The position numbers and the translations under genes are program-made. Below are positions 1-13,251 of a stretch of 14,809 nucleotides of DNA, in pieces. Numbering within the stretch: the stretch's first letter is position 1; each line of letters starts with the position of its first letter. The notes below the pieces were generated by a model, which did no database searches, had not been told where the DNA came from, and worked only from the letters and a program-made list of their open reading frames with translations. The DNA comes from Verrucomicrobiota bacterium (lineage in GTDB: Bacteria > Verrucomicrobiota > Kiritimatiellia > Kiritimatiellales > Tichowtungiaceae), in contig JADYZA010000071.1 in NCBI GenBank assembly GCA_020853375.1, positions 1 to 14,809 on the forward strand. The letters are read 5' to 3'.

Positions 1-294
1 ATTGTCGTGGTAAGAGCAGCCTTCACCGGACCAGCGGGCGGAATAAACGCCCGGTTCGCCGTTGAGCACCTCGACCTCAAGGCCGGAGTCATCGGCCAGC
101 GCGGGCAGTCCGGTAGCCTGGCAGATCTCAACCGCTTTTTTAATGGCGTTGGCCTCCAGCGTGTCGCCGTCTTCGACCACATCGGGAATTTCCGGGAAAT
201 CGAATGCGGAGCAGACTTCCAGACCTTGGAAATTAAAAATAGCGTGAATTTCTTCAAGCTTGTGCGGATTGCGCGTTGCGATTACCAGTTTCAT
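1..294 (-). CDS. rdgB: RdgB/HAM1-family non-canonical purine NTP pyrophosphatase (5' part only)
   Basis: The minus strand reads from an ATG at 294 to the window edge, giving the first 98 residues; the C-terminal half lies outside the window. The protein begins [16 protein letters not shown], the nucleotide-binding start typical of Ham1/RdgB, and later carries [14 protein letters not shown] (about residues 41-54) and [12 protein letters not shown] (about 63-74), the catalytic-site region with the conserved DDSGL. By family knowledge it hydrolyses dITP, XTP and ITP to monophosphates in the cytoplasm and so keeps deaminated purines out of DNA and RNA. The start is secure because the family begins directly with this strand. 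A degraded copy of the window's 17-bp palindrome (217-231) lies inside the gene and encodes F-Q-G-L-E. The gene is divergent from the tRNA-Leu gene. Confidence 0.93.
216..232. repeat. Degraded copy of the TTTCCAA-N3-TTGGAAA palindrome (inside rdgB)
   Basis: CTTCCAG-ACC-TTGGAAA: the right arm is intact and the left arm has two mismatches to consensus. The ACC spacer also occurs in the copies at 2970 and 7483. Confidence 0.55.
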
Positions 295-348
295 GGGGCG
301 GAGTGTGGAAGTTCAGGGATCAGACTTCAAGACCAGCTTAATTCAAAT

Positions 349-383
349 ATGCGCTTGCGCATGGCGGGTGGAGAAGCTATGTT
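349..383 (+). promoter_or_regulatory. Putative sigma-70-type promoter of tRNA-Leu, with an overlapping palindrome
   Basis: TTGCGC (355-360) is followed after 17 bp by TATGTT (378-383). This would start transcription near 390, about 10 bp before the mature tRNA. The perfect inverted repeat ATGCGC-TT-GCGCAT (349-362) covers the -35 box and could be an operator. It is a motif match only, and the -35 box is weak. Confidence 0.4.
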
Positions 384-399
384 TTTCGGCCTTTCCCGC

Positions 400-486
400 G
401 CTCGGGTGGTGAAATTGGTAGACACGCCAGCTTGAGGTGCTGGTGGCCGCAAGGCCTTCGGGGTTCGAGTCCCCGCTCGAGCACCA
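400..486 (+). tRNA. tRNA-Leu (anticodon GAG)
   Basis: The 87-nt sequence folds as a class II tRNA. The acceptor stem GCTCGGG (400-406) pairs with CTCGAGC (476-482) with one G-T pair, followed by discriminator A483 and an encoded CCA (484-486). The anticodon stem CCAGC/GCTGG (427-431/439-443) holds the loop TTGAGGT, so the anticodon is GAG (434-436), which reads CUC and CUU leucine codons. The long variable arm has a GGCC-GCAA-GGCC hairpin (445-456), as expected for leucine. The T arm is CGGGG-TTCGAGT-CCCCG (459-475). The D arm carries GGTAGAC. All arms look intact. Confidence 0.97.
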
Positions 487-559
487 AATCCTTTCTCCTT
501 CCTGCCTGACACGGAAACTCTGGCTTTTCCCGTCCGCATCCATTAAAACCCGCCCAAGC

Positions 560-1612
560 ATGAAAAAACGCGCAGCAGTCGGAATGAGCGGCGGCACGGA
601 CAGTTCCGTGGCGGCGGCTCTGCTTGTCGAGCCGGGCTGGGACGTCATCGGCCTGACCGCCCACAGGTGGAAAGACGGTTCGCGCTGCTGTTCGCTTGAA
701 GACGTCACCCGCGCGCAAAAAGTCTGCGCGGCGCTCGGCATCCGCCACTATGTCGTCAACGCGCAGGATCGCTTCGAAGAAAAAGTCGTCGCGCCGTTCG
801 TCAGCGAATACGCCGCAGGCCGTACGCCGTCGCCCTGCATCGCCTGCAACCAGTTCATCAAATTCGGCTTTCTGCTCGACCGCGCGGTGCAGCTCGACTG
901 TGCCGTGCTGGCGACCGGCCACTATGCGCGCATCGAAGAACGCGATGGCGCATTCCATCTTCTGCGCGCCGTGGATCGCACCAAAGACCAGTCCTACTTT
1001 CTGCACCGCCTCTCGCAGAAACAGCTCGCGCATGTGGTCTTCCCGCTCGGCGGCTGGACGAAAGAAGAAGTGAAAAAATGGTCGACCGACCACAACCTGC
1101 CGATTGTTCCGCGCGGCGAAAGTCAGGATCTCTGTTTTGTCGAAGAGGGAATGTATCCCGAATTTGTCGAAGCGCGCGCGCCGGAAGTGAAGAAGAAAGG
1201 GCGCGTACTCGACGATCAGGGCAAACAGCTGGCCGAACACGACGGCATCCACCGCTTCACCGTCGGACAACGCGGCGGAACCGGCGTCGCCGTTGGTGAA
1301 CGCGTTTACGTCAGCCGGATCGACGCCGACAAAAACGAAATCACTCTTTCGCCGCGCGAAGGCGTCATGCAGTCGGAATGTCTCGTGCAGGGTGCGCAAT
1401 GGATTTCAGGAATTTTTCCAAGCGTTGGAAACGTCACGGTTCAACCGCGCTACGGCCATCGCGGTGCGGACGCGACGCTCGAAAAAATCAGTGATACCGA
1501 ATTCAAGGTTCGTTATGCCGAACCGCAGTTCGCGCTCACTCCTGGCCAAGCCGCCGTCGTCTATCACGGCGACGAAGTTCTCGGTGGTGGGTGGATTCAG
1601 AGCGAACGATGA
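560..1612 (+). CDS. mnmA: tRNA-specific 2-thiouridylase MnmA
   Basis: The 350-residue product matches the usual MnmA length of about 350-370. In the cytoplasm MnmA adenylates and thiolates U34 of tRNA-Lys, -Glu and -Gln, taking sulfur from a relay. The PP-loop is SGGTDSS (10-16; many homologues have V where this has T). The first catalytic cysteine is Cys96 in PCIACNQFIKFG and the second is Cys192 in ESQDLCFV. ATGHYARI (118-125) and DQSYFLHRLS (143-152) are also family signatures, and the C-terminal third is the usual beta-barrel. I chose the ATG at 560 because the PP-loop then sits at residue 10, as in relatives; the frame stays open upstream but that part overlaps the tRNA gene. No Shine-Dalgarno is visible. 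The gene follows tRNA-Leu by 73 bp, so read-through co-transcription is possible. A perfect 17-bp palindrome at 1415-1431 encodes F-P-S-V-G in a loop that is variable between homologues. Confidence 0.95.
   Translation: MKKRAAVGMSGGTDSSVAAALLVEPGWDVIGLTAHRWKDGSRCCSLEDVTRAQKVCAALGIRHYVVNAQDRFEEKVVAPFVSEYAAGRTPSPCIACNQFIKFGFLLDRAVQLDCAVLATGHYARIEERDGAFHLLRAVDRTKDQSYFLHRLSQKQLAHVVFPLGGWTKEEVKKWSTDHNLPIVPRGESQDLCFVEEGMYPEFVEARAPEVKKKGRVLDDQGKQLAEHDGIHRFTVGQRGGTGVAVGERVYVSRIDADKNEITLSPREGVMQSECLVQGAQWISGIFPSVGNVTVQPRYGHRGADATLEKISDTEFKVRYAEPQFALTPGQAAVVYHGDEVLGGGWIQSER
1415..1431. repeat. Perfect copy of the TTTCCAA-N3-TTGGAAA palindrome (inside mnmA)
   Basis: TTTCCAA-GCG-TTGGAAA, both 7-bp arms perfect. 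It reads in frame as TTT CCA AGC GTT GGA AA. It lies in the variable linker before the VTVQPRYG strand of MnmA. Confidence 0.85.
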
Positions 1613-1655
1613 ATAGGGAAAATTGACGGATCGGTTATAGCTTATCGCTCATCAA

Positions 1656-2558
1656 TTATGATTTCTTAATCGGATCAAGCACCCAGCGTTTGTTGAACCA
1701 GAAGTATTGTTCGGGGCGGGCGTGGATTTCGGCGTCGAAGATGGAGACGAGCGCTTGCATCATCCGCTGCCAGTCTTCTTTTTTGTCGGCGGACGGATTG
1801 GGGAAGATCGGGGCGAATACTTGGCAGTCGTGAACGGTCCAGCCTCGGCGGGTGAGCACGACGGGATAAATCGGGCAGGAGGCCATCTGTGCGAAGAGAG
1901 CCGCGCCTGCGCCGAGGTTGGCCTTGCCGCCGAGGAAATCAATGGAGAGCGCTTCGGTGGCGGAGCGCACATCCGGCAGGATGGCCAGAACCTCTCCGGC
2001 TTTCAGTCGACGCACCACGTTTTTCAGCACGGCGGAATCGTTCAGAACCACTTCCATGCCGGTGGCGTTGCGCATCTGGTTCAGCAGTTCGTCGGTGAGC
2101 GGATTTTTCTGCCGCCGGGCGATGGAAAAGATTGGCATGCCGTCGAGTTTACTGGCGACGCCGGCCAGATCCCAGTTGCCCATGTGCGCTGTGGCGACGA
2201 TCAGCGGGCCGTTTTGTTTGTAGTCGTTATGCACCTGCTCGATGGAGTTGTAGAGCGGCATGCGGCGCATCTGTTCCGGTGTCAGCTTGCCAAAGCGTGC
2301 GGCTTCGACGGCGTTGAAGCAGATGTTGCGGAGAGAAATCCAGGCGATTCGTTTGCGCTCTTGGGCGGTGAAGCGGTCGCCGAAGACCTGCTTCAGGCGG
2401 CTTTCGGCCTTGTCACGGCGATAGCGCAGGACATGAAAGAACAGTTTGCCGATCAGCCAGCCGAGCGCAAGTGCCAGCCGCAACGGAAGAATGTTCACGA
2501 GGCTGAGCAGTCCGCGCAACAGAACGTATTCAATAATATGTTTGGTGCGATATTTCAT
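1656..2558 (-). CDS. LpxL/HtrB-family lysophospholipid (lipid A) acyltransferase
   Basis: This 300-residue protein has an N-terminal hydrophobic stretch (about 8-45), expected to anchor it on the inner face of the cytoplasmic membrane. The acyltransferase HxxxxD motif is in ATAHMGNWDLAG (His125, Asp130). GEVLAILPDVRSA (188-200), with LPD where LpxL proteins usually have a PDQ-type motif, and a C-terminal PEQYFWFNKRW are also typical of LpxL/LpxM. The family transfers a secondary acyl chain from acyl-ACP onto the lipid A precursor, so the cell probably makes lipopolysaccharide. Which chain is added cannot be told. Its ATG overlaps the dnaE stop (TCAT at 2555-2558, ATGA on the coding strand), so translation is probably coupled to dnaE. 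It converges with mnmA across 43 bp in which I see no convincing terminator. Confidence 0.85.
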   Translation of the reverse strand: MKYRTKHIIEYVLLRGLLSLVNILPLRLALALGWLIGKLFFHVLRYRRDKAESRLKQVFGDRFTAQERKRIAWISLRNICFNAVEAARFGKLTPEQMRRMPLYNSIEQVHNDYKQNGPLIVATAHMGNWDLAGVASKLDGMPIFSIARRQKNPLTDELLNQMRNATGMEVVLNDSAVLKNVVRRLKAGEVLAILPDVRSATEALSIDFLGGKANLGAGAALFAQMASCPIYPVVLTRRGWTVHDCQVFAPIFPNPSADKKEDWQRMMQALVSIFDAEIHARPEQYFWFNKRWVLDPIKKS

Positions 2559-5500
2559 GACTTGCGTCCATTAAAGCGTCGGCGGGGCGGTTCGCGCAAG
2601 AACGGTTGTGTTTTGGCGGCGACATAAACCGCTTCTTCGCCGAGCAGGTGTTCGAGTTTATGCACCAGTTCCGGCGAGACGGTTACTCGTGAATTCCGGT
2701 CGGCTTTGATGAAAACTTTTTCACCGGAATCGAGCTGGACGCAGAGGTTTAGCAGAGTCGGACCGGAGTGTTCTTCCGCGATTTTTTTGATTGCCTGGAG
2801 TTTTTCCTGACTCAGCGCCGCTTCGGGTAGGTGCAGGCTGAGCTTTTCGGCGAAGAGGAGCGGGGCTTCAGCGAGCGGGAAAAGTTCCGATATCTGGATT
2901 TCGAGTTCATCGCGGAAGTCGCGGGTGATTTTTCCCGTGGCCATCAGCGGCGCTCCGTCGTCGAGCAGTTTTTCAAACCTTGGAAACTCGCTGGACCAGA
3001 CGACGGCGTTGACGGCGGCTTCGAGGCCTTCGAGCCGGAAGCGGGCGTACGGCTTCGGGCTGTCGTCCGGAGTTTTCGGCTTGGTGAAAACTTTTTTGTA
3101 TTTATCCACCAGCCCGCCGACACGGATGAATGTTTTCTGTTCGTCGTTTCCGGCGGCTTGAAACACGTCGCCCAGTTCGCCGATTTTTTGAAGAGCGAAG
3201 GTTTTTAGTGTCCATTCGTATTCGGCCAGCGGGTGGCCTGAAATGTAAAATCCGATCAATTCTTTTTCCGCTGAAAGCATTTCGCTGTCAGGCCACGGCT
3301 CGATCACGGGGAGATCTTTATCGCTGTTTTCCGCCGGGCCGGTATTGAGCATGTCGAAGAGCGAGCGTTGTCCGCTTTGTTTATCGCGTTGGGCGGAGGC
3401 CGCGCGGCTCATCGCCATTTCAAGGCCGGCAAACAGGCGGCTGCGCGGCATGAGGCAGAAGTCGAAGGCGCCGCATTTAATCAGGCTTTCCAGCGTCTTA
3501 CGGTTCACTTCGCGGGAATCCATGCGGGAGCAGAAGTTCATCAGCCCGGTGTACGGGCCGTTGGCCTCACGTTCTTTCACCAGCGCTTCCACCGCGCCCG
3601 CACCGACGTTTTTCACGCCTGCCATACCGAAGTGAATCGCGCCTTGGACGGGCCGGAACCGCGCGATACTTTCGTTGACGCTTGGCGCGCACACGTTGAG
3701 GCCCATTTCGCGCGCTTCCGCCAGCAGGAACGCCAGTTTATCCGGCGTGCCCATTTCGCTTGAGAGGAGCGCGGCCATGAATTCCTCGGGGTAGTTGGCC
3801 TTTAGCCATGCGGTCTGGTAGGAGATAATTCCGTACGCCGCGCTGTGCGATTTGTTAAATCCATACTGCGCGAATTTCTCAATCATCTCCCAAAGCTTTT
3901 GCGCCAGCTTCTGGTCGATGTTGTTGGTTTTTTTGCAACCGTCGATGAAATTGGCGCGCTGCGCGTCCATGACGGCTTTGTCTTTTTTACCCATCGCACG
4001 GCGGAGCAGGTCGCCCTGGCCGAGCGAGAACCCGGCCAGCTTGTTGGCCGCCTGCTGAATCTGCTCCTGATAAACGATAATGCCGTAGGTTTCTTTGACG
4101 ATGCCTTCGAGTAACGGATGTTCGTACTGGATTTTCACCTTGCCGTGTTTGCGCGCGATGAATTCGTCGATGAACTGCATCGGCCCCGGGCGGTAGAGCG
4201 CGATCATGGCGATCAGGTCTTCGATGCGGTCGAGGCCGATCTTGCGCAGGGTGTCGCGCATTCCGGCGCTTTCCACCTGAAACACGCCGATCGTGTCGCC
4301 GCGGTTGAGCAGGTCGTAGGTCTTTTTGTCGTCGAGCGGAATTCGATCAATATCCAGCACGACCCCGTGGTTGATGCGGATGGACTCGACCGCCTCTTGA
4401 ATCACCGTCAGCGTTTTGAGTCCGAGAAAGTCCATCTTGAGCAGGCCGATGGCCTCCATCGGCTTCATTTCAAACTGGGTGATCACCTGTTTGTCTTTAT
4501 CCCGCGAGAGCGGCAGGATGTCGATCAGCGGTTTTTCGCCGATCACCACGCCGGCGGCGTGCGTGCCGGTATGGCGCGGCAGACCTTCCAGAACCGGCGC
4601 ATACTTCATGATTTCGCGGGCGGTCGGATCGCTGGCGCAGGCGCGTTTGAAGTCCGGGTTTTCGCTCAGCGCTTGCTCCAGCGTTGCGCCCGGCGTTTCC
4701 GGAACCATCTTGGCGAGCTTATCGCACTCGTTCAGCGGCAAAGCCAGCACCCGGCCAATGTCGCGGATCACCGTTTTCGCGCCGAGCGTTCCGAAGGTAA
4801 TGATCTGCGCCACGTTTTCGCGGCCATACTTATCCTTCACATACTCGATCACCTCGCCGCGGCGCGCCTGGCAGAAGTCGATGTCAAAGTCCGGCGGCGA
4901 TACGCGGTCGGGGTTGAGGAATCGTTCAAAAATCAAATTATAGAGCAATGGATCGAGCGCCGTGATGCCGAGCGCGTAGGCCAGCATACTGCCTGCGCCG
5001 GAACCGCGGCCCGGGCCGACCGGAATGCCGTGTTCTTTTGCCCAGCGGATGAAGTCCTGCACCACGAGGAAATAGTTGATGAAGCCGGTTTTTTCGATGA
5101 CGCCGACTTCATAATCGAACCGTTCCACCACCCGTTTTTCAATGTCGGTTTTCGGGTTCGTAAGATTTTCGACCGGATAGAGTTTTTTCAGTCCGGCGAT
5201 GCCGATGGCCATCAGGTAATCCTTCTGGCTCTTATATTCGGGTGGAATTCCAAACACTGGAAAATGGAGCGGCGGATTTTTGAGCGCAAACTCAACATTG
5301 CAACGGCGGGCGATTTCGACCGTGTTGGCCAGCGCCTCCGGATGGTTCGGGAAAAGCCGCTCCATTTCCGCACCGCTCTTCATATAAAACTGGTCGCCGG
5401 AATAGCTCATCCGGTTTGTATCGCTCACCAGATTGCCGTGCTGGAGACAGATCAGCACATCGTGCGCATCGCGGTGCTCCTGCCGGATATAATGCACATC

Positions 5501-6118
5501 GTTTGTCGCCACCAGCGGCAGGCCGGTACGTTTCGCCACTTCGACGATGTGTTTATTCGCCGTCTTCTGCTCAGGGAGACCGTGATCCTGAATTTCGAGG
5601 AAGAAATTATTCGGGCCGAGAATTTCGGAATACTCCTTCGCCAACGCCACGGCCTTATCGACCGCTCCTTCGGCGCAGGCTTCCGCGATTTCACCCTTCA
5701 GACAGGCCGACAGGCCGATCAGCCCCTTGCTGTACTGCCGGAGAATCTTCTTATCGATGCGCGGCTTATAATTGAAGCCTTCCAGATGACCGAGCGAAAC
5801 CAGATGCATCAGGTTGTTGTAGCCCTCGTTATCTTCTGCCAGCAGAACCAGATGCAAATTATCGGCCTGACCGCCCTCACGGTTATCCATTCCCTTGCGG
5901 GCGATGTACACCTCGCAACCGATGATCGGCTTAATACCGGCCTTCTGAGCCTTCTCATAAAAATCGATTACGCCGTAGAGCACGCCGTGGTCCGTAATCG
6001 CCAGATGTTCCTGCCCCAGCTCCTTGGCGGTTTTCACGGCATCGGCCACCTTGCACGAACTATCGAGCAAGCTGTATTCCGTGTGAAAATGAAGATGGCA
6101 GAACGGTACGGTTTTCAT
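2555..6118 (-). CDS. dnaE: DNA polymerase III alpha subunit DnaE
   Basis: At 1187 residues it is close to the usual DnaE1 length (about 1160). The order of parts is an N-terminal PHP domain (about 1-280), the palm with PPDFDIDF (Asp410, Asp412) and the third catalytic aspartate Asp563 in LLKMDFLGLKTL, the thumb and fingers with EGLPRHTGTHAAG (511-523) and YGFNKSHSAAYG, then an OB-fold region (about 997-1075) and a short C-terminal tail. It extends DNA at the replication fork. The PHP domain keeps a full set of likely metal ligands (His10, His12, Asp19, His44, Glu69, His105, Cys139, Asp207, His209), unlike the E. coli subunit. The start is the family-typical short lead before HLHFHTEYSLLDS; there is no Shine-Dalgarno. 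Degraded 17-bp palindromes lie inside at 2970 and 5247, and two stand just upstream of the start. Confidence 0.97.
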   Translation of the reverse strand: MKTVPFCHLHFHTEYSLLDSSCKVADAVKTAKELGQEHLAITDHGVLYGVIDFYEKAQKAGIKPIIGCEVYIARKGMDNREGGQADNLHLVLLAEDNEGYNNLMHLVSLGHLEGFNYKPRIDKKILRQYSKGLIGLSACLKGEIAEACAEGAVDKAVALAKEYSEILGPNNFFLEIQDHGLPEQKTANKHIVEVAKRTGLPLVATNDVHYIRQEHRDAHDVLICLQHGNLVSDTNRMSYSGDQFYMKSGAEMERLFPNHPEALANTVEIARRCNVEFALKNPPLHFPVFGIPPEYKSQKDYLMAIGIAGLKKLYPVENLTNPKTDIEKRVVERFDYEVGVIEKTGFINYFLVVQDFIRWAKEHGIPVGPGRGSGAGSMLAYALGITALDPLLYNLIFERFLNPDRVSPPDFDIDFCQARRGEVIEYVKDKYGRENVAQIITFGTLGAKTVIRDIGRVLALPLNECDKLAKMVPETPGATLEQALSENPDFKRACASDPTAREIMKYAPVLEGLPRHTGTHAAGVVIGEKPLIDILPLSRDKDKQVITQFEMKPMEAIGLLKMDFLGLKTLTVIQEAVESIRINHGVVLDIDRIPLDDKKTYDLLNRGDTIGVFQVESAGMRDTLRKIGLDRIEDLIAMIALYRPGPMQFIDEFIARKHGKVKIQYEHPLLEGIVKETYGIIVYQEQIQQAANKLAGFSLGQGDLLRRAMGKKDKAVMDAQRANFIDGCKKTNNIDQKLAQKLWEMIEKFAQYGFNKSHSAAYGIISYQTAWLKANYPEEFMAALLSSEMGTPDKLAFLLAEAREMGLNVCAPSVNESIARFRPVQGAIHFGMAGVKNVGAGAVEALVKEREANGPYTGLMNFCSRMDSREVNRKTLESLIKCGAFDFCLMPRSRLFAGLEMAMSRAASAQRDKQSGQRSLFDMLNTGPAENSDKDLPVIEPWPDSEMLSAEKELIGFYISGHPLAEYEWTLKTFALQKIGELGDVFQAAGNDEQKTFIRVGGLVDKYKKVFTKPKTPDDSPKPYARFRLEGLEAAVNAVVWSSEFPRFEKLLDDGAPLMATGKITRDFRDELEIQISELFPLAEAPLLFAEKLSLHLPEAALSQEKLQAIKKIAEEHSGPTLLNLCVQLDSGEKVFIKADRNSRVTVSPELVHKLEHLLGEEAVYVAAKTQPFLREPPRRRFNGRKS
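2970..2986. repeat. Near-perfect copy of the palindrome (inside dnaE, OB-fold region)
   Basis: TTTTCAA-ACC-TTGGAAA, one mismatch in the left arm. On the dnaE strand it reads TTT CCA AGG TTT GAA AA (F-P-R-F-E, from residue 1045). Confidence 0.65.
5247..5263. repeat. Near-perfect copy of the palindrome (inside dnaE, after the PHP domain)
   Basis: ATTCCAA-ACA-CTGGAAA. Each arm has one change from consensus. On the dnaE strand it encodes F-P-V-F-G (from residue 286), in a segment that varies between homologues. Confidence 0.6.
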
Positions 6119-6169
6119 GGGTCAGGGCGCCCATATTACCGAACCCGCCCGCCGGGGAAAGACTGGAGT

Positions 6170-6186
6170 TTTCCAACCGTTGGAAA
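6170..6186. repeat. Perfect copy of the palindrome, upstream of dnaE
   Basis: TTTCCAA-CCG-TTGGAAA. The symmetry extends one base each way (6169-6187, 8-bp arms). It begins 52 bp before the dnaE start codon. Confidence 0.85.
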
Positions 6187-6200
6187 AAATGAGCATGAAG

Positions 6201-6217
6201 TTTCCAAACATCGGAAA
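6201..6217. repeat. Near-perfect copy of the palindrome, upstream of dnaE
   Basis: TTTCCAA-ACA-TCGGAAA, one mismatch. The flanking G6200/C6218 also pair. Its centre is 31 bp from the perfect copy at 6170, the same spacing as between the copies at 7588 and 7619. Confidence 0.75.
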
Positions 6218-6287
6218 CAGAAGGACTTCGACAGCCGGATTTTTTAACAGAAGGGCACAAAGGAAAAGCCGAAGGTTCTGGCCTGTC

Positions 6288-6312
6288 CGCCATAGCACGA
6301 AGAGCGACGGCG
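6288..6312. repeat. Imperfect hairpin CGCCATAGC / GCGACGGCG
   Basis: The two 9-base arms (6288-6296 and 6304-6312) pair at seven of nine positions around a 7-base loop. It resembles short dispersed intergenic hairpins seen in many environmental genomes; that resemblance is from memory and unverified. Confidence 0.35.
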
Positions 6313-6319
6313 AAAATGC

Positions 6320-6339
6320 AGCGGCTCGCCGCCGCTTTT
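6320..6339 (+). terminator. Terminator-like hairpin without an evident upstream gene
   Basis: AGCGGC-TCGCC-GCCGCT (6320-6336) is a GC-rich stem ending in TTTT. No plus-strand gene precedes it, and the T run is short and runs into the palindrome at 6337. It may be coincidental, a repeat remnant, or the end of an unannotated small RNA. Confidence 0.2.
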
Positions 6340-6353
6340 CCAATCATCGGGAA
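6337..6353. repeat. Degraded copy of the palindrome, intergenic
   Basis: TTTCCAA-TCA-TCGGGAA. The left arm is perfect and the right arm has two changes. Its centre is 136 bp from that of the copy at 6201 (close to 13 helical turns). Confidence 0.55.
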
Positions 6354-6515
6354 TCCGCCCACGAATAATACGAAACAACACGAATGGCTTCCGAGGGCTG
6401 GAACTCCACCGCCGAAATTTCGAAAAACCATCTGTCGCTCTTTAATTTCCTTTGATAACATGACCCGCGTCGACGAGTGAAAGTTAATCGCTCGGCGGGA
6501 GTTGCCATATATTGC

Positions 6516-6520
6516 AGGAG
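6516..6520 (+). promoter_or_regulatory. Shine-Dalgarno of the gene at 6526
   Basis: AGGAG ends 5 bases before the ATG at 6526. This decides that start over the in-frame ATG at 6502, which would place the signal peptide eight residues inside the protein. Confidence 0.75.
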
Positions 6521-6525
6521 AAAAT

Positions 6526-7311
6526 ATGAAAAAAATAATCACACTGCTTCTTACGTGTCTAACCATCCTGTCTGCACAGGGAGCAGAAGATATTTCTTCA
6601 TGGCTCCAAAATTATTTCAGAGAGCCGCAGCCAGAAAAAATACCGTGGATGCTCGAACAACTTGAAAAAAGCCAGGCTCTAAAAACGCATCCGTCGGCGC
6701 AGTCTCCGACTACTGGTAGCCTGTATGTCATATTTAAAGCAAACCCTGCTGAGGCGATAACGTGGGTAAAAGGCGTCTGCGATTATTCTCCCGAGGTCAA
6801 AAGAATTTGCTGGATGGGACTTTGGCTTGCTGATCTGAAGTCGGGAAAAGAATATTTAGCCGAGATAAAACCGATGCTGTCCGGTGATGACCTTAAATAT
6901 GTAGACATTCTTTTATCGAATGCTCCGTACTCTATTGAGAAGAAATCCATTAAAAACCCAAGCGATCTTGACATGTTATGGGGCGCGTTCTTTGGCTCTG
7001 GAAACCCCGTTTATGTGGAGAAAATCATCACGGCACTAAAAGGCTATGACCAACGGGAGGATGTGGGGTTGTTTCTAACAGCCGCCGCCTCAAAGTGGTC
7101 GCTGAAAAGTAATGCTGAAAAATATCCCGAGATAAAGAGAATTTTGGAGCAACCCCGAGAATCTGGAAATGAAGTTGTGATCAGGCAGCTAAAGGACATC
7201 TTAGATCCAACAGTTTCAGCTTCTTCGGAAGAGGGAACAGAGCAGATGGCTAAAATATTGAAAGACGAATTTTCCAAAGAGGCAAAGGATCGGTTTCGTA
7301 ATAAAAAATGA
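6526..7311 (+). CDS. Exported protein of unknown function
   Basis: I do not recognise a named family with certainty. The 261-residue product starts MKKIITLLLTCLTILSAQGAE, a clear signal peptide with likely cleavage after AQGA, so it should act in the periplasm or outside. The mature part is mainly polar and looks helical, with LDMLWGAFFGSGNPVYVEKIITALK and a later AAASKWSLKSNAEKYPEIKRILE stretch. This is reminiscent of conserved hypothetical proteins found in several Gram-negative groups, but no function follows from that. The start is set by AGGAG five bases upstream. Its base composition is visibly richer in A/T than mnmA, dnaE or folP, with many AAA, AAT and ATA codons, which may indicate acquisition by transfer. 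It ends 10 bp before folP and could share its transcript. Confidence 0.8.
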   Translation: MKKIITLLLTCLTILSAQGAEDISSWLQNYFREPQPEKIPWMLEQLEKSQALKTHPSAQSPTTGSLYVIFKANPAEAITWVKGVCDYSPEVKRICWMGLWLADLKSGKEYLAEIKPMLSGDDLKYVDILLSNAPYSIEKKSIKNPSDLDMLWGAFFGSGNPVYVEKIITALKGYDQREDVGLFLTAAASKWSLKSNAEKYPEIKRILEQPRESGNEVVIRQLKDILDPTVSASSEEGTEQMAKILKDEFSKEAKDRFRNKK

Positions 7312-7321
7312 CCGCGTCCAA

Positions 7322-8230
7322 ATGATCGAAAAAAAACAGCAAGCCCTGATGCAATCAGTTCCAATGTCTGGAAACGCCAAAATCATCTGGAACTGCCGCG
7401 GGCGGGAAGTTGTCTGCGGGCAGAGGACGCTGATTATGGGCATTCTGAACACGACTCCGGATTCGTTTTCGGACGGCGGGCGTTTCCAAACCTTGGAAAA
7501 GGCCGTGGCGCGCGGCCTGCAAATGGTCGAAGAGGGCGCTGACATTATTGATATCGGCGGCGAATCGACCCGGCCCGGCGCAAAACCCGTCCAACCCTTG
7601 GAAGAAATTGCGCGGACGGTTCCAATCATTGGCAAACTGCGCGAGAAAACGGATGCGCTGATTTCGATTGATACGCGGAAAGCGGAAGTCGCCCGCGCCG
7701 CGCTGGCGGCGGGTGCGGATATTATCAACGACATTTCGGCGCTGGCCGATCCCGGCATGGCGGCGTTGGCGGCGGAGTCCGGCGCGGGGCTGGTGCTGAT
7801 GCATATGCTCGGAACGCCGGAGACGATGCAGAGTGATCCGCGCTACGATGATGTCGTTTCCAATGTTCGGAGTTTTCTGGAGGAGCGGTCGGCCTTCGCG
7901 ATTGGGCGCGGCGTTGCGCCGGAGCAAATCGCGCTCGATCCGGGGATTGGTTTCGGCAAGACGGATGAACATAATCTGGCGCTGTTGCGGGGAATTCCGG
8001 AGCTGGCGGACGCGGGGTGTCCGGTGTTGATCGGCGCGAGCCGTAAGAGTTTTATCGGGCGGATTCTGGGCGGGAAGCCGGACGAGCGGTTGGCGGGTTC
8101 GCTGGCGGTTGCGGCTTTTTCAATTCTGCGCGGCGCGCATATCCTGCGGGTGCACGACGTAAAGGAATCTTGCGATGCGGCGCGGCTTGTGGATACACTC
8201 CGAACCAATGAACTGGCTTCACAGTATTGA
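7322..8230 (+). CDS. folP: Dihydropteroate synthase FolP
   Basis: FolP joins 6-hydroxymethyl-dihydropterin pyrophosphate and p-aminobenzoate to dihydropteroate in cytoplasmic folate synthesis. The TIM-barrel motifs are all present: LIMGILNTTPDSFSDGG (37-53), GADIIDIGGESTRPG (72-86), SIDTRK (115-120), GADIINDISAL (131-141), DPGIGFGKT (206-214), GASRKSFIG (238-246) and RVHDV (276-280). The 302-residue length is a little over the usual 270-290 because the N terminus is long. ATG codons at 7322, 7349 and 7364 are all possible; none has a clear Shine-Dalgarno. The third lies inside a palindrome copy. Five palindrome copies lie in the first 560 bp. Its end overlaps the start of cdaA by 23 bp, which suggests coupled translation. 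Confidence 0.95.
   Translation: MIEKKQQALMQSVPMSGNAKIIWNCRGREVVCGQRTLIMGILNTTPDSFSDGGRFQTLEKAVARGLQMVEEGADIIDIGGESTRPGAKPVQPLEEIARTVPIIGKLREKTDALISIDTRKAEVARAALAAGADIINDISALADPGMAALAAESGAGLVLMHMLGTPETMQSDPRYDDVVSNVRSFLEERSAFAIGRGVAPEQIALDPGIGFGKTDEHNLALLRGIPELADAGCPVLIGASRKSFIGRILGGKPDERLAGSLAVAAFSILRGAHILRVHDVKESCDAARLVDTLRTNELASQY
7358..7374. repeat. Near-perfect copy of the palindrome at the start of folP
   Basis: GTTCCAA-TGT-CTGGAAA, one change in each arm. TGT is the complement of the ACA spacer at 5254 and 6208. The site contains a possible folP start (ATG 7364-7366). Confidence 0.6.
7483..7499. repeat. Perfect copy of the palindrome (inside folP)
   Basis: TTTCCAA-ACC-TTGGAAA. It encodes F-Q-T-L-E directly after the SFSDGGR motif. 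Its centre is 125 bp from that of the copy at 7358. Confidence 0.85.
7588..7604. repeat. Partial copy of the palindrome (inside folP)
   Basis: CGTCCAA-CCC-TTGGAAG. The inner TCCAA/TTGGA arms are perfect and the outer bases are lost. Its centre is 105 bp from that of the copy at 7483. Confidence 0.5.
7619..7635. repeat. Partial copy of the palindrome (inside folP)
   Basis: GTTCCAA-TCA-TTGGCAA. It has two changes from consensus. Its centre is 31 bp from that of the copy at 7588. Confidence 0.5.
7857..7873. repeat. Degraded copy of the palindrome (inside folP)
   Basis: TTTCCAA-TGT-TCGGAGT. The left arm is perfect and the right arm has three changes. It is the weakest of the listed copies. Confidence 0.35.
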
Positions 8231-10020: not shown

Positions 10021-10027
10021 GCTACTT

Positions 10028-10885
10028 ATGCGATACGTTCTTTCCATTTCAATCGGTTTGGGTTTCGCCGTTTCTGCGCTGTCACAGGATATTCCGAAAG
10101 GGGCTTCGCCGTTGCCTTCCAGTGCTGCGTACGACAAGGTGCTTAAGCCGTCGTCTGAGTCCGCTCCGGAAGAAGGCCCCGCGAAATCGCTGCAAATGCG
10201 GCCTGGTGAAAAGGCCGAAACTCCACCATCGCTACTGAAACCTGCCGAAGAGATTTCCGGACTGAAATCTGAAAAAACCGGAGCCGGCATCTATACCGTG
10301 ACGACGAATGCTGCGCCGAGTCCCGCACCGGTTGCCGCAGCCGATCAAATTGATTTTTCAAAAGTTAATTTTCTGATGGATACCGGCCTTCAATATAAAG
10401 ATGCGGGAGAGTATGAAGAAGCCGAGAAGGCTTATTTGCGGGCATTGGAAAAGGTGCCTGGAAATCCCGACATCCGTTTCCGTTTGAGCACGCTGTATAT
10501 TCAAATGAAACGGTATGCGCAGGCCGGGAAAATTCTGGAGGAGCTGGGCAAGGAGTTTCCTGACAGCCCGATTGTGCATAATAATTTGTCGTGGGTTTAT
10601 GCGTCCGGCGGGGAAATGAAGAATGGAAAGCTGGCATTGCTTCACGCCCATGAGGCCATCCTGGCTGCACCGTATACTCCGTCTATTTGGAACACGCTGG
10701 CTGAGGCGTATTATGTGTCTGGAAAGTATGATGAGGCTTTGCAAGCTTCCGATCATGCGATCGGCCTGTTGAACATGCAGGAGCCCTCCGAGGCCGATAA
10801 GGCTTCTTTTGCGGCGCAGTATGCAAAAATTCAGCGCGCCATTGAAGCAGGCAAGCAACTTTCCGGCTTTGGCCCGAAGAAGTGA
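10028..10885 (+). CDS. Exported TPR-repeat protein of unknown function
   Basis: The 285-residue protein has an N-terminal signal-like segment (about 1-20, ending ALSQ), then a Pro/Ala/Ser/Glu-rich, probably disordered stretch (about 21-105), and a C-terminal block of tetratricopeptide repeats: about 114-147 (YKDAGEYEEAEKAYLRALE), 148-181, 182-217 (VHNNLSWVYASGG) and 218-251 (WNTLAEAYYVSGKYDEALQASDHAI). TPR arrays bind other proteins; the partner is unknown. It follows cdaR by 7 bp, so it is probably the last gene of the folP-cdaA-cdaR transcript and may act in the periplasm near CdaR. In several phyla glmM is found at this place, and it is not here. No Shine-Dalgarno is seen. The stop abuts that of the convergent gene. 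Confidence 0.8.
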   Translation: MRYVLSISIGLGFAVSALSQDIPKGASPLPSSAAYDKVLKPSSESAPEEGPAKSLQMRPGEKAETPPSLLKPAEEISGLKSEKTGAGIYTVTTNAAPSPAPVAAADQIDFSKVNFLMDTGLQYKDAGEYEEAEKAYLRALEKVPGNPDIRFRLSTLYIQMKRYAQAGKILEELGKEFPDSPIVHNNLSWVYASGGEMKNGKLALLHAHEAILAAPYTPSIWNTLAEAYYVSGKYDEALQASDHAIGLLNMQEPSEADKASFAAQYAKIQRAIEAGKQLSGFGPKK

Positions 10886-10888
10886 TCA
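10883..10888. other. Shared TGATCA: abutting stop codons of convergent genes
   Basis: TGA (10883-10885) ends the plus-strand TPR gene and TCA (10886-10888) is the TGA of the minus-strand gene. The two genes meet with no bases between them, so any terminator must lie inside the opposite gene. Confidence 0.8.
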
Positions 10889-11818
10889 TTGCCAAATGCT
10901 GTTTTTAAAGGTCGGCGAGGGATTTTCCGCAAACGGATCCGGACGGTTGATCGGCGACGATTTTCTAATCATCTCAATAGGCGTGAGCGGTGCCGGTTTC
11001 GAATCGTTCCGATCATAGGAAGAAACCGAGCTGGATTTGCGCACAGGTATCGCGGGGTTTACGGCAGGCGTGGTCGGCTGGGGGCGCAGGGGATTCTGTT
11101 GTGTGGAAGTTGAATTCCGCGTGGCTCCCGGCGAGAACGGCGCCGATGCGGTCGACTTTTCTCGGCGTGAAACCGTGCGGAGTGCAGTCATTGGATCGGG
11201 CGTTCCATCTCGCAGTACATTGTATGCTGGGGCATTTGTGTCCATTCGCTTGTCGCCAAACAGCTGCGGAGCCGCCAGTTTATATTTTTTCAGAGGATCC
11301 GATTCCTGCCGGTTGTTTTGCTTATCCATTTTTTCGCGCAGAAGCTTGTCAACCGCTTCGTTTTCTTTGGACAGAGCCGCGGCCTGATCTTTCAGTTCTT
11401 TTTGCCGCGTCAGTTCCTGAATCAGCCAAGCATTCTCATCGGGTTCATCTTTTGATGTTTTGGCTGCTGAATCATCCAGAACGGCCGCTGTCAGCCAGTT
11501 TTTATTTTCGGAGGGACGCGGCACGCTGGTCGCCGATTGCGGAGTTGCTTGAAGGGCTTTCACCGTCGGCTGAGCGTTCTGCTTAGCCTCCATTTCGCGC
11601 AGTTTTTTATCAAGCTGCCGGTCCTCTTCTGTTTCGCTGCGCGGTACCGTCAGGTTGCGATTTTCAATTAATGCGTTTTCAGAGTAGGTCCTATGAACCG
11701 CCTTCTTTTTTTGAGCGGCCAGCGCGGCGTCCAGATCCTCCGCCGTAACCGAAAGACTGATTCCGGCAAGAATGGCGATCGCGGCTAACCCTTTGGAAAT
11801 ACGGAACTTCATAGCCAC
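10886..11818 (-). CDS. Exported, polar coiled-coil/low-complexity protein of unknown function
   Basis: I do not recognise a family. The product is 310 residues from the GTG at 11818, or 308 from the ATG at 11812. The GTG has a GGTGAGG 11 bases upstream; that sequence is 17 bases from the ATG, so the GTG fits slightly better. A signal peptide (about 3-27, ending SVTAE) is clear. The rest has charged, heptad-like helices (about 60-82 and 133-172, for example EDRQLDKKLREMEAKQ and KENEAVDKLLREKMDKQ), and the C-terminal part is rich in Ser, Thr, Pro and Asn and probably disordered. No catalytic motif is visible. A structural or tethering role in the envelope would suit this composition, but that is a guess. 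It is divergent from the Trp-Pro repeat gene at 11944. Confidence 0.72.
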   Translation of the reverse strand: MAMKFRISKGLAAIAILAGISLSVTAEDLDAALAAQKKKAVHRTYSENALIENRNLTVPRSETEEDRQLDKKLREMEAKQNAQPTVKALQATPQSATSVPRPSENKNWLTAAVLDDSAAKTSKDEPDENAWLIQELTRQKELKDQAAALSKENEAVDKLLREKMDKQNNRQESDPLKKYKLAAPQLFGDKRMDTNAPAYNVLRDGTPDPMTALRTVSRREKSTASAPFSPGATRNSTSTQQNPLRPQPTTPAVNPAIPVRKSSSVSSYDRNDSKPAPLTPIEMIRKSSPINRPDPFAENPSPTFKNSIWQ

Positions 11819-11904
11819 TGAAAAATACGCCTCACCTTACTCAGCGTCAATCATCCGGTTGGGCGACATGGATTGGCGCTGTTTGGTGGCGGGAAAGAAA
11901 GCTT

Positions 11905-11933
11905 TTGCGGGTTGGTTCAGGCTCTGATAAATT
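11905..11933 (+). promoter_or_regulatory. Possible promoter of the 11944-mlaF transcript
   Basis: TTGCGG (11905-11910), 17 bp, TAAATT (11928-11933). It would start transcription within a few bases of the ATG at 11944, giving an almost leaderless message; no Shine-Dalgarno precedes that ATG. The match is weak (three of six bases in the -35 box, four of six in the -10 box). Confidence 0.25.
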
Positions 11934-11943
11934 CTCCGCCTAA

Positions 11944-13251
11944 ATGAAACGGGTATTTTTTAAGGGTTTTGTCTTTTTAGTGCTGTGCGGCCACGCCGCC
12001 GCAGGCAGTCTGTTTCCGTTTTATGACGACATTCAGACTGCGCAGGGATCGTTTTTCGCCGTCCGTCCGTTTTATTCACACACGGTCGTCAAGGAAGGCG
12101 AAATCCGCGACTACGTTTGGCCGCTTTATTCGCGCAAAGAGTTCAAGGATGAGCAGAGTTCCCGTGCGCTGATTTTCTGGTACACCCATAAGTTTAATGC
12201 GCAGCAGCAGAGTCCGCGCGACCGCAGTTGGCTTTTGCCGATCTACTTTAAAGGGCGCGATGTTGACGGCAAGGAATACTTTGCGCTGTTCCCTCTTGGC
12301 GGAACGATTCGCGAGTTTCTCGGCCGTGACGAGATCCTGTTTGCGCTGTTTCCGGTGTTTGGAAAAAGCCGGATCAACGATGTGAAAACAACCAGCGTGC
12401 TCTGGCCGATCTACTCGCATACACGCGGCACCGGCATAGAACGAGACCGCGTTTTTCCGATCTATGGAAAATCGGTGCTGGAAGGAAAATACGAAAAACA
12501 CTTCATTCTTTGGCCGTTTTGGAATTCCGCCGACTATTTTTATCCGGGCGATTCCGGAAAATCCTGGCTTCTATTTCCGGTGTGCGGTCGGGCGAAGATG
12601 GATCACGAAAGCACGGTCTGGGTGATTCCGCCTCTTTTCCGTTTTACCGAGGGCGATAAGCAGAACCGGATGACCTGTCCGTGGCCGTTTATTCAGAAGG
12701 TTGAGAGCGAGAAGTATGACAAAATGTATGTCTGGCCGCTTTGGGGAGAGAAACAGTTTAAACCCGGGTTGAAGCATCGCACGTTTGTTCTTTGGCCGAT
12801 TTTCTGGTCCGAAAAATCGACGGAGTCAAATCTGACAAAAACCCGGCGCATGGCGTTGCCGTTTTTCTTTCTGGATCGGAGTTTTCTTGAAGAAAAAGGG
12901 GTTGAAAAGGCCGACCGCGTCGAGGTTTCCAACTATTGGAAAATCTGGCCGCTGATGAGCTGGCAGCGCGATGGCGAAGTTTCCCGTTTCCGGATGCTGG
13001 AAGTCTGGCCGATCAAGAACAGCGCGCCGGTTGAACGTAACTGGACTCCGCTCTGGACGTTGTACAAACGGACAAATGCGGACGGAGTTGTCCGTAAAGA
13101 CGTGTTGTGGTTTGCCTGGCACAGCGAAGCATCGTTCGCCGCCGAACAAAAGGAATGGTCTTTACTGAAAGGACTGCTGGCGTATAAAAGAGACGGTGAG
13201 AAACAGAGTTTACGCCTTTTGTATTTTGTGCGCTTAGGGGAAGAAAAATGA
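11944..13251 (+). CDS. Exported Trp-Pro repeat protein, coupled to mlaE, function unknown
   Basis: The 435-residue protein has a signal peptide (about 1-20, ending GHAAAG) and then about 18 copies of a short aromatic motif, [W/F/L]-P-[L/I/V/F]-[Y/W/F], spaced 17-21 residues: for example RPFYS 41, WPLYS 59, LPIYF 98, FPVFG 136, WPIYS 154, FPIYG 171, WPFWN 190, FPVCG 211, WPLWG 264, WPIFW 284, WPLMS 335, WPIKN 355. Each motif is followed by charged turns. Alternating aromatic strands with this period suggest a beta-repeat fold such as a solenoid, propeller or barrel. I know no function for it. Its TGA overlaps the mlaE ATG, so the two are probably made together, which points to the cell envelope. 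A perfect palindrome (12926-12942) lies inside. Confidence 0.82.
   Translation: MKRVFFKGFVFLVLCGHAAAGSLFPFYDDIQTAQGSFFAVRPFYSHTVVKEGEIRDYVWPLYSRKEFKDEQSSRALIFWYTHKFNAQQQSPRDRSWLLPIYFKGRDVDGKEYFALFPLGGTIREFLGRDEILFALFPVFGKSRINDVKTTSVLWPIYSHTRGTGIERDRVFPIYGKSVLEGKYEKHFILWPFWNSADYFYPGDSGKSWLLFPVCGRAKMDHESTVWVIPPLFRFTEGDKQNRMTCPWPFIQKVESEKYDKMYVWPLWGEKQFKPGLKHRTFVLWPIFWSEKSTESNLTKTRRMALPFFFLDRSFLEEKGVEKADRVEVSNYWKIWPLMSWQRDGEVSRFRMLEVWPIKNSAPVERNWTPLWTLYKRTNADGVVRKDVLWFAWHSEASFAAEQKEWSLLKGLLAYKRDGEKQSLRLLYFVRLGEEK
12926..12942. repeat. Perfect copy of the palindrome (inside the Trp-Pro repeat gene)
   Basis: TTTCCAA-CTA-TTGGAAA. It encodes S-N-Y-W-K, a different reading frame from the mnmA and folP copies. 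It sits in the longest gap of the protein's repeat pattern (about residues 310-334). Confidence 0.85.
13236..13241 (+). promoter_or_regulatory. Strong Shine-Dalgarno of mlaE
   Basis: AGGGGA lies 6 bases before the ATG at 13248 and inside the end of the Trp-Pro repeat gene. It supports reinitiation at the ATGA overlap. Confidence 0.7.

Follow-up and report, generated by a model that had tools for sequence, protein, structure and literature searches.

Sequence-specific architecture sites are, to our knowledge, known in few bacterial groups, and the phased cooperative operators that we know of lie at single control regions. Lambda CI operators are 17-bp, 7-N3-7 palindromes with an odd centre; their binding is cooperative, with looping, and the sites are few and clustered on the phage. 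NtrC-type enhancer sites have CCA-N5-TGG geometry and come in pairs about 32 bp apart. We know of no helical phasing among Noc-binding sites (NBS), whose sequence differs from the palindrome described here, nor of phased arrays of HIP1 in cyanobacteria. According to the literature cited here, NBS are missing around the terminus (PMC7383237), HIP1 has very many copies and lineage variants (PMC4390886), and Lrp-like proteins occupy neighbouring palindromes whose centres lie two or three turns apart on the same face, with the DNA wrapped (PMC2995911, PMC10201364).

Here, we follow a palindrome from one 14,809-nucleotide stretch of DNA (the window) into related genomes. Its core is TTCCA-N5-TGGAA and its usual form TTTCCAA-N3-TTGGAAA, with G or C at the centre of the spacer. 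It has the 17 bp, 7-N3-7 form and odd centre of lambda CI operators, but there are hundreds of sites, and HTH_3 is undetected in three positive genomes. Like NtrC-type enhancers, it shows CCA-N5-TGG geometry and a similar pair spacing; unlike them, it has no clear excess of sigma-54 promoters beside its arrays, and HTH_8 proteins occur in each of the 46 genomes examined, whether these have the sites or lack them. HIP1 differs in its length of 8 bp, and it is tied to methyltransferases. The sites are short and scattered over the chromosome as NBS are, but show no terminus depletion in the complete relative G009. Their very many copies and lineage variants recall HIP1 (PMC4390886). Odd-centred palindromes at 2-3-turn spacing also characterize archaeal and bacterial Lrp/AsnC operators, which are cooperative and wrap DNA; those operators are described at single control regions (PMC2995911, PMC10201364), whereas the arrays here are genome-wide and extend into genes.

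Palindrome sites in the window and across genomes

A first-pass annotation of the window had listed 13 copies, four of them perfect (1415, 6170, 7483 and 12926), and held that this exceeds chance. All 13 were recovered at the same coordinates, the remaining nine carrying 1-3 mismatches, and a search allowing up to 3 mismatches added three sites with 2-3 mismatches (10435, 12349 and 12454). The resulting 16 sites compare with a mean of 1.08 and a maximum of 5 over 200 dinucleotide shuffles. A C or G at the spacer centre, reported for all but one copy, is found in 15 of the 16 window sites; across 116 records, a few of them overlapping, 353 of the 359 perfect sites have it. The sites and relevant features are as follows, with gene names taken from the first-pass annotation or assigned by eye.

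216..232: site, 2 mismatches, in the rdgB-like gene
1415..1431: perfect site, in the mnmA-like gene
2555..6118, minus strand: dnaE (DNA polymerase III alpha, 1187 aa), with the conserved pair upstream of it; named by eye
2970..2986: site, 1 mismatch, in dnaE
5247..5263: site, 2 mismatches, in dnaE
6133..6169, minus strand: promoter-like conserved stretch that separates dnaE from the dnaE-proximal site
6170..6186: perfect site, dnaE-proximal half of the conserved pair
6201..6217: site, 1 mismatch, conserved partner 31 bp from 6170
6337..6353: site, 2 mismatches, intergenic, 136 bp (13 turns) from 6201
7358..7374: site, 2 mismatches, in the folP-like gene
7483..7499: perfect site, in the folP-like gene, 125 bp (12 turns) from 7358
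7588..7604: site, 3 mismatches, in the folP-like gene, 105 bp (10 turns) from 7483
7619..7635: site, 2 mismatches, in the folP-like gene, 31 bp from 7588
7857..7873: site, 3 mismatches, in the folP-like gene, 238 bp from 7619
10435..10451: site, 3 mismatches, perhaps a chance match
12349..12365: site, 2 mismatches, in the Trp-Pro-rich protein gene (11944-13251)
12454..12470: site, 2 mismatches, 105 bp (10 turns) from 12349
12926..12942: perfect site, in the Trp-Pro-rich protein gene (11944-13251)

The palindrome observation is confirmed, and it is larger in extent than the window could show. A whole-genome count gives 96 perfect sites in the window's own genome and 0 for the reversed control, and 36 of 40 genomes, this one included, have perfect sites. 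Across 240 genomes of the phylum, at least one perfect site occurs in 30 of 81 class members, while 8 of the 159 genomes outside the class have one each; counts above 1 are confined to the class Kiritimatiellae (highest, 1,010), and the reversed control matches once in all 240 genomes together. In many Kiritimatiellae, perfect copies number from tens to about a thousand per genome and lie within genes as well as between them; two genomes, 7.4 and 8.7 Mb in size, hold 83 and 65. The relaxed pair is absent from 47 of the 81 sampled class genomes, so the class can do without it. Sister genera use variant arms at unchanged spacing, and phage contigs carry arrays of 9 and 11 phased sites near the terminase. 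Within one genus, the density of perfect sites ranges from about 12 to about 200 per Mb, a shift that is quick for an essential architecture and, like the genomes without the pair, speaks against an architectural reading.

Conservation before dnaE and other genes

The dnaE of the window is 65-88% identical to full-length relatives in the genus, and the 31-bp pair before it is kept in 8 of 14 species, or 11 of 14 when degraded copies are counted. The linker drifts: mean pairwise identity over 11 dnaE loci is 0.87 for the arms and 0.36 for the linker. The conserved stretch at 6133..6169 contains a TAATAT/TAGAAT-like hexamer 31 bases past the dnaE-proximal site, and probably serves as the dnaE promoter. 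In G012, G002 and G003, the pair and this promoter-like block are placed together about 150 bp further upstream. Orthologous arrays also precede lysA, pyrB and mreC, and two rumen genomes have the same 22-30-22-31-31 layout before mreC. Both this joint placement and these orthologous arrays are points for a classical global transcription regulator, with cooperative operators at many promoters and in-gene copies acting as low-affinity decoys, an explanation taken up below with the placement of the sites. The arrays before dnaE, lysA, pyrB and mreC do resemble ordinary operators, which is at odds with an architectural role.

Inside dnaE, at the 2970 place, G013 and G004 have 2-mismatch versions at the same position and G013, G009 and G001 have versions shifted by one base; none of 12 orthologues has a perfect copy there, and the 5247 site was not found in the 12 orthologues. 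The three in-gene dnaE places differ from their orthologues by substitutions, save for one 3-base gap. This bears on the short multiplying repeat that the first-pass annotation had offered as an alternative, taken here as a mobile or self-multiplying element akin to REP/BIME or MITE. The intergenic excess, patchy distribution and arrays would suit such an element, but it is disfavoured because the linkers and N3 spacers vary while the arms and helical spacing are kept, with phase held at variable distances, and because the dnaE in-gene sites differ mostly by substitutions. We regard it as extremely unlikely.

Whole-turn spacing and placement of the sites

Neighbouring sites lie 22, 31-32 or 41-42 bp apart, and then at further multiples of about 10.4 bp. 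Among relaxed pairs in the 81 class genomes, 3,556 are spaced at 30-32 bp vs 21 at 25-27 bp, and 20 of those 21 come from three genomes of genus g2. Whole-turn neighbours in the window are found at 31 bp (6170-6201, 7588-7619), 105 bp (7483-7588, 12349-12454), 125 bp (7358-7483) and 136 bp (6201-6337); the 238 bp from 7619 to 7857, at 22.8 turns, fit the phasing more poorly. In G009, where phasing was computed for neighbouring sites with at most 2 mismatches, R is 0.90 at 17-70 bp (n 40), 0.79 at 70-150 bp (n 11), 0.80 at 150-350 bp (n 16, p 3.6e-5) and 0.46 at 350-500 bp (n 22, p 9e-3), vs 0.05 for the reversed control. Adding 3-mismatch sites lowers the value at 150-350 bp to 0.50; between 500 and 700 bp, neighbours are out of phase or show no phasing, and the signal at 1-2 kb is not independent. 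Neighbours within the same gene are phased as well (70-350 bp, R 0.77, n 22, p 2.5e-6), and only 8 of these 22 distances are multiples of three. Altogether, neighbouring sites stay on the same helix face, with coherence up to about 350 bp and a weak signal up to 500 bp, and they do so inside genes too. This helical phasing is new relative to the first-pass annotation.

Codon-preserving shuffles were made for 800 kb of G009 and repeated 20 times. Coding sites with 0, 1 and 2 mismatches number 46, 64 and 58 there, against shuffle means of 0.55, 4.7 and 22.5, so that perfect in-gene sites stand 84-fold above synonymous shuffles. The earlier claim that sites fall in all three reading frames also holds in G009 (36, 57 and 75 in-gene sites). 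The proposal that selection works at the level of DNA rather than of a peptide is supported, because all frames are used, 46 perfect coding sites stand against 0.55 in the synonymous shuffle, and same-gene neighbours follow helical and not codon spacing.

Copies in all frames, a high and lineage-variable copy number, alternate variants in sister lineages, and mismatches that pile up at the outer and inner ends of the arms could also come from a methyltransferase or repair bias, as has been proposed for HIP1, the highly iterated palindrome of cyanobacteria. Such a bias leaves unexplained both the whole-turn spacing with variable linkers and the kept dnaE pair, and we consider this origin very unlikely. 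RNA hairpins or terminators are scarcely credible. Every copy could fold into a hairpin with 7 bp in the stem and 3 bases in the loop, and compensatory two-mismatch sites (3 of 19 in G050, 8 of 60 at array loci) exceed naive expectations of 0.5 and 1.5, but there is no excess over a shuffle in which the mismatches keep their positions and bases (G009, 3 vs 6.4; G050, 3 vs 1.8, P 0.26; array loci, 8 vs 5.3, P 0.15). Sites also lie in divergent regions and inside genes, and phasing by helical turns belongs to DNA in its double-stranded form.

The density of sites is 3-fold (G009) to 25-fold (G050) higher between genes than within them, as a global regulator would have it. Sites occupy 25 of 89 convergent, 29 of 126 divergent and 76 of 354 tandem intergenic regions. 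With four genomes pooled, sites are as frequent in convergent as in divergent regions by share occupied, which counts against such a regulator. G050, which has the most sites of all, has poorer convergent regions, the pattern expected of a promoter factor and a point against an architectural reading (4 of 23 convergent, 9 of 30 divergent and 20 of 71 tandem regions occupied; 1.09, 3.30 and 4.01 sites per kb); G009 is the opposite. No -10-like hexamer was found at a fixed distance in the array flanks of five sets, and the genes adjoining arrays are of many functional kinds. The tie of sites to promoters is thus weak, and with in-gene neighbours phased and in-gene sites in such excess, we judge a global regulator to be unlikely. 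Along the G009 chromosome, the sites are evenly spread, and 40 stretches of 20 kb show no origin-terminus trend (Spearman rho with distance from the skew minimum -0.01, p 0.95); thirds counted from the skew minimum, set by eye at 1.44 Mb, have 7.0, 5.5 and 7.4 sites, and clusters per 20 kb have a mean of 4.38 and a variance of 5.57.

On balance, we favour the reading that the palindromes are sites of one dimeric, sequence-specific protein whose dimers touch or bridge over distances up to about 350 bp, likely with a chromosome-architectural role, and rate it slightly better than even. The predicted dimer would bind each palindrome, and bound dimers would contact each other or bridge along one helix face up to about 350 bp; the main role would be structural, with regulation at some promoters, such as that of dnaE, beside it. 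A fuller version, offered tentatively and rated somewhat below even, is that a candidate Kiritimatiellae protein reads up to 1,000 or more palindromes per genome and that selection keeps neighbours co-facial over hundreds of base pairs, even in genes, which would give a phased nucleoprotein or "sequence-coded chromatin," with the phage arrays before packaging genes using the same protein. If the genome-wide helical-phase rule holds within and between genes, it would be a readable code for a protein's layout of the chromosome in a class of bacteria with a poorly known cell biology. What the binder must do can be predicted from the site, from the spacing rule and from the limits of that rule, which makes the question testable.

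Candidate binding proteins

The first-pass interpretation stands in part: DNA-level selection and a genome-wide site hold up, and the best class of explanation is still a DNA-binding protein that organises the chromosome or is very widespread. The specific analogues are not supported, and the multiplying repeat is disfavoured. A Noc analogue is countered by the lack of an origin-terminus gradient in G009 and of a second ParB in the positive genomes tested; PF17762 matches once in 41 of 46 genomes, with no difference between those that have the sites and those that do not, twice in G055, G064, G105 and G206 (all without the pair) and not at all in G018. Sites in G009 are not confined to the terminus region, contrary to a MatP/matS analogue. 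The SlmA analogue is not supported, since PF00440 (TetR family) is undetected in 6 positive genomes of 30 tested (G010, G073, G082, G147, G181 and G191). These assemblies are 91-95% complete and hold 412 perfect sites (G010) or 64-122 pairs.

The binder was not found among the families profiled in positive genomes. LacI is not supported, PF00356 being undetected in positive G003, G045 and G099 (9 of 46 genomes overall), nor is HTH_3 (XRE/CI-like), PF01381 being undetected in positive G045, G087 and G181, the only such genomes among 30. Matches to the -24/-12 elements of sigma-54 promoters with up to 2 mismatches occur per kb near and far from arrays at 0.45 and 0.22 in array-selected loci (14 and 19 matches; 1 and 7 with up to 1 mismatch), at 0.27 and 0.52 in G050, and at 0 and 0.2 in G122 and G009, where only 1.3 and 0.4 kb lie near arrays.

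The class's Lrp/AsnC-like protein could itself be the binder, the dimers of an octamer holding sites 2-3 turns apart and wrapping or looping the DNA. Spacings of 22 and 31-32 bp are two or three turns on one face, matching the geometry of adjacent palindromes described for Lrp-like proteins, which wrap DNA (PMC2995911, PMC10201364). Among 68 genomes tested, PF01037 is present in 36 of 36 positives (defined by 4 or more relaxed pairs, or 100 or more perfect sites), and the 5 genomes lacking it all lack the pair, but it is also in 27 of the 32 others. The recognition helix varies among genomes with the same site (G050, G099, G122, G178, G014 and G181), one position being arginine in several, Q in G014 and E in G181; the HTH is present in 28 of 30 aligned proteins. 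An Lrp-like binder fits in geometry only, and we consider it distinctly unlikely. The core site lies at just 2 of 30 lrp loci, in one case (G127) about 140 bp upstream of lrp.

Abundance and distribution of the palindrome

A search of the window for TTTCCAANNNTTGGAAA, allowing as many as three mismatches, returned 16 sites, as against 1.08 in dinucleotide shuffles (largest value 5 in 200). These include all 13 copies of the 17-bp palindrome TTTCCAA-N3-TTGGAAA (the site) reported in the first-pass annotation, plus three that were absent from its list. The excess over chance that it described extends to the whole genome: the window's own assembly (1.55 Mb in 230 contigs, 88% complete, the window being contig 71) contains 96 perfect sites, and the reversed control, which is the site pattern read backwards, is absent from it. 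The annotation also held that selection or spread acts on the DNA and not on a peptide. In keeping with this, the coding DNA of the relative G009 (571 genes) has 46, 64, and 58 sites at 0, 1, and 2 mismatches, compared with 0.55, 4.7, and 22.5 after synonymous codons were permuted within genes.

Perfect sites occur in 36 of 40 genomes (the window's own plus 39 relatives), ranging from 1 to 412, while the reversed control matched once in total. In a phylum sample of 240 genomes, 30 of the 81 members of the class Kiritimatiellae contain at least one perfect site (maximum 1,010); outside it, eight of 159 genomes contain exactly one each, and the reversed control again matched once in the whole sample. 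The name of the class comes from one of its genomes, G122, which is the Kiritimatiellae MAG RGIG6649: locus L098 of that MAG agrees at every base with the beginning of G122 contig 1. We also searched a collection in which each named species is represented by a single genome; pairs of perfect sites separated by 3–33 bases turned up in at least 111 stretches. Titles among the matches listed name Kiritimatiellae and their kin, Pontiellaceae, Lentisphaerae, Verrucomicrobia, Spartobacteria, uncultured bacteria, and one Bacteroidales MAG. The contig titled Bacteroidales (L095) holds a perfect phased pair and is perhaps a mis-binned Kiritimatiellae contig. Open-access literature on the motif, palindromes, or binding sites in Kiritimatiellae or Verrucomicrobia held nothing relevant as judged by titles and abstract openings, nor did that retrieved with both arms plus "bacteria," judged by title among the matches listed.

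Spacing by whole helical turns

Arrays contain 2 to 7 sites, in which the arms (the 7-bp halves) are nearly invariant and the linkers between sites differ. Few changes are tolerated in the TTCCA core positions; the outermost T and the innermost A are variable, the latter changing mostly to G. Across our first 116 records, adjacent perfect sites lie 20–22 bp (24 pairs), 30–32 bp (157 pairs), or 41–42 bp (3 pairs) apart, with none at 23–29 or 33–40 bp. Because these loci were partly chosen for pairs, spacing was re-examined in unselected stretches, on which our claims of phasing and placement are based; loci selected for pairs make up the early record sets, part of the fixed-offset promoter test, and the array-locus rows of other tests. 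The unselected stretches gave spacings of 21–22 and 30–31 bp in G122 and 29–33 bp in G050. In G009, a single 3.88-Mb contig, short spacings are 22, 31, 32, and 40–42 bp and longer ones 53, 63, 83, 92, 95, 114, 116, 125, 135, 146, 167, 178, 220, 250, and 251 bp; the exceptions are 34 bp and an overlap of 1.

Variant arms at unchanged spacing occur in some members of the class that have no perfect sites, namely TTTTCCA-N5-TGGAAAA in G127, where the inner bases differ, and TCCAAN3TTGGA in G058. Relaxed pairs (TCCAN5TGGA twice, starts 30–32 bp apart) were found in 34 of the 81 class genomes, 3,556 summed over the class, and as single pairs in six of the 159 genomes outside it. At a control spacing of 25–27 bp, there were 21 relaxed pairs in the class and one outside. 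Twenty of those 21 belong to three genomes of one genus, g2 (G014, G018, and G019), which also hold 132 pairs at 30–32 bp. This genus is an exception to the spacing rule and perhaps has a second geometry.

To quantify phasing, we sampled 800 kb of G009 as 40 evenly spaced stretches and computed R, the phasing strength at a period of 10.44 bp, from sites with at most two mismatches. For all pairs, R was 0.90 at 17–70 bp (n = 43), 0.84 at 70–150 bp (n = 18), 0.77 at 150–250 bp (n = 9), 0.85 at 250–350 bp (n = 17), and 0.55 at 350–500 bp (n = 29), then 0.41 with a shifted phase at 500–700 bp (n = 20) and 0.01 at 700–1000 bp (n = 27); the reversed control gave 0.05. Since pairs within a cluster are non-independent, phasing was recomputed on neighbors only, giving 0.90 and 0.79 in the two shortest ranges, 0.80 at 150–350 bp (n = 16, p = 3.6e-5), and 0.46 at 350–500 bp (n = 22, p = 9e-3). 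Including sites with three mismatches lowered these four values to 0.87, 0.75, 0.50, and 0.33. Phase coherence in G009 is therefore solid up to about 350 bp and weak up to 500 bp. An apparently significant signal across 1–2 kb in G009 is not claimed because between-cluster pairs are non-independent and other genomes gave no clean repeat.

The phasing is also present inside genes. Neighbors within one gene gave R 0.96 at 17–70 bp (n = 15) and 0.77 at 70–350 bp (n = 22, p = 2.5e-6), and 8 of the 22 distances in the latter range are divisible by three, which is the chance level. Within the window, sites are spaced by 125, 105, and 31 bp in the folP-like gene and by 105 bp in the Trp-Pro gene. Between the phased sites and folP, positions 6502–7311 form a 269-aa ORF whose beginning resembles a signal peptide.

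Sites kept whole turns apart while their linkers vary are characteristic of protein-bound double-stranded DNA and point to neighbor contact or bridging: a putative self-associating dimeric protein would bind the duplex at each site and either contact its neighbor or bridge to it. Coherence is lost at about 350–700 bp, as would be expected from torsional flexibility in the case of bridging; alternatively, this range may reflect assembly size.

Chromosome architecture or transcriptional regulation

Such a protein could be chromosome-architectural or a classical global transcription regulator. We favor architecture over a promoter regulon, based on the number of sites, their even spread, and the phased in-gene copies. 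In G009, site density does not depend on distance from the GC-skew minimum, and site clusters per 20 kb are near Poisson. Genes adjoining arrays are of diverse functional kinds. Using a simple gene caller of our own with per-genome codon models, which makes genic and intergenic figures approximate, we obtained intergenic and genic densities per kb of 0.756 and 0.248 in G009, 2.553 and 0.100 in G050, 3.304 and 0.225 in G099, and 0.432 and 0.036 in G191. Summed over these four genomes, sites occupy 25 of 89 convergent, 29 of 126 divergent, and 76 of 354 tandem intergenic regions. Convergent regions are richest in G009 (16 of 50) and poorest in G050 (4 of 23, vs 9 of 30 divergent and 20 of 71 tandem). 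This intergenic pattern of G050 is one of the two strongest points against architecture. The other is fast copy-number change within a genus: in genus g1 (G000–G013), perfect-site density varies between species from ~12–15 per Mb (G007, G008, and G012) to ~200 per Mb (G002, G004, and G010).

A few arrays are conserved in place. Upstream of dnaE, a site with at most two mismatches is present in 13 of 14 members of the genus (G006 has none), and eight of 14 carry two of this quality at a 31-bp distance without this layout being imposed. When degraded partners are allowed, 11 loci match the 31-bp layout at 23–28 of 28 arm positions; G013 (interrupted second site), G006 (no site), and G001 (one site) were excluded from this comparison beforehand. 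Mean pairwise identity across the 11 loci is 0.87 for the arms, inflated because the layout was imposed and selected by fit to the arms, and 0.58 for the N3 spacers, 0.65 for the downstream promoter-like stretch, and 0.36 for the linker, a low figure that this selection does not affect. The pair lies ~150 bp further upstream in three species, and the promoter-like block is displaced along with it. In the window, this conserved block (6133–6169) has a TAATAT/TAGAAT-like hexamer at constant distance from the dnaE pair. Elsewhere, a six-site layout upstream of mreC is identical in two rumen MAGs, and the lysA and pyrB arrays are each common to two genomes, with a linker also shared at lysA. The conserved sites before dnaE, lysA, pyrB, and mreC show that certain positions have local importance. 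Within the dnaE gene, sites turn over between orthologues: the one at 5247 is in none of them, and the one at 2970 recurs in weaker form in G013 and G004 and shifted by one base in G013, G009, and G001.

Because the arrangement at dnaE hinted at the phasing of an activator beside polymerase, we tested arrays for a promoter at fixed distance. TANNNT showed no peak at offset 31 in the flanks of five sets, and a promoter at constant distance from arrays was rejected.

Candidate binding proteins and phage arrays

An Lrp/AsnC-like protein fits as binder by geometry and by presence: of 68 class genomes, 63 have a member (a single match in 48 and two in 15), among them all 36 positive genomes, defined by at least four relaxed pairs or 100 perfect sites. 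It fails on its recognition helix, which differs among genomes sharing the same site. Of 30 lrp loci, 28 are without the core site TTCCA-N5-TGGAA, and in one it lies upstream of the gene. In the near-universal protein of these loci (L192–L221), the ligand domain is conserved and the recognition helix is not; this protein may not bind DNA at all.

Other candidates were disfavored as well. The sites were considered as sigma-54 enhancers, but HTH_8 occurs in 46 of 46 genomes, with a helix that is alike in positives and negatives where read. Hits to -24/-12 promoters with up to two mismatches, counted per kb near and far from arrays, pointed in different directions, at 0.45 and 0.22 in array-selected loci and 0.27 and 0.52 in G050. 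No positive genome has ParB doubled, as a second ParB would require, and LacI, TetR, and HTH_3 each went undetected in some positive genomes; these four exclusions presuppose that every positive shares one binder family, and diverged members, or genes missing because an assembly is incomplete, could have escaped detection. As a test of autoregulation, we scanned 60 array-downstream proteins (60–366 aa) against Pfam, and no DNA-binding domain recurred among 25 listed of 85 families. The most frequent of those listed were Response_reg (3 of 60) and SMC_N (2 of 60), and one GntR-like protein was noted by eye (L021).

Spacings off the rule occur in many of the 48 IMG/VR stretches that contain two core sites, but some of these stretches have phased arrays.

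Phased arrays on tailed-phage contigs
L381, 3033–3362: 11 phased sites, up to 4 mismatches
L382 (related to L381), 2785–3031: 9 phased sites, up to 4 mismatches
L409, 649–768: 4 phased sites, ~1.7 kb before terminase

Successive spacings are 31, 22, 32, 31, 31, 31, 31, 42, 31, and 31 bp in L381 and 31, 31, 22, 31, 31, 31, 31, and 22 bp in L382. From the arrays, we infer that the phage hosts are Kiritimatiellae, and possible roles are late-gene control or packaging. Both the L381 and L382 arrays lie ~300 bp upstream of a gene pair whose last gene is the large terminase. In L382 and L409, matches were obtained for terminase, portal, protease, and head proteins; in L381, the portal was matched and the terminase was named by eye.
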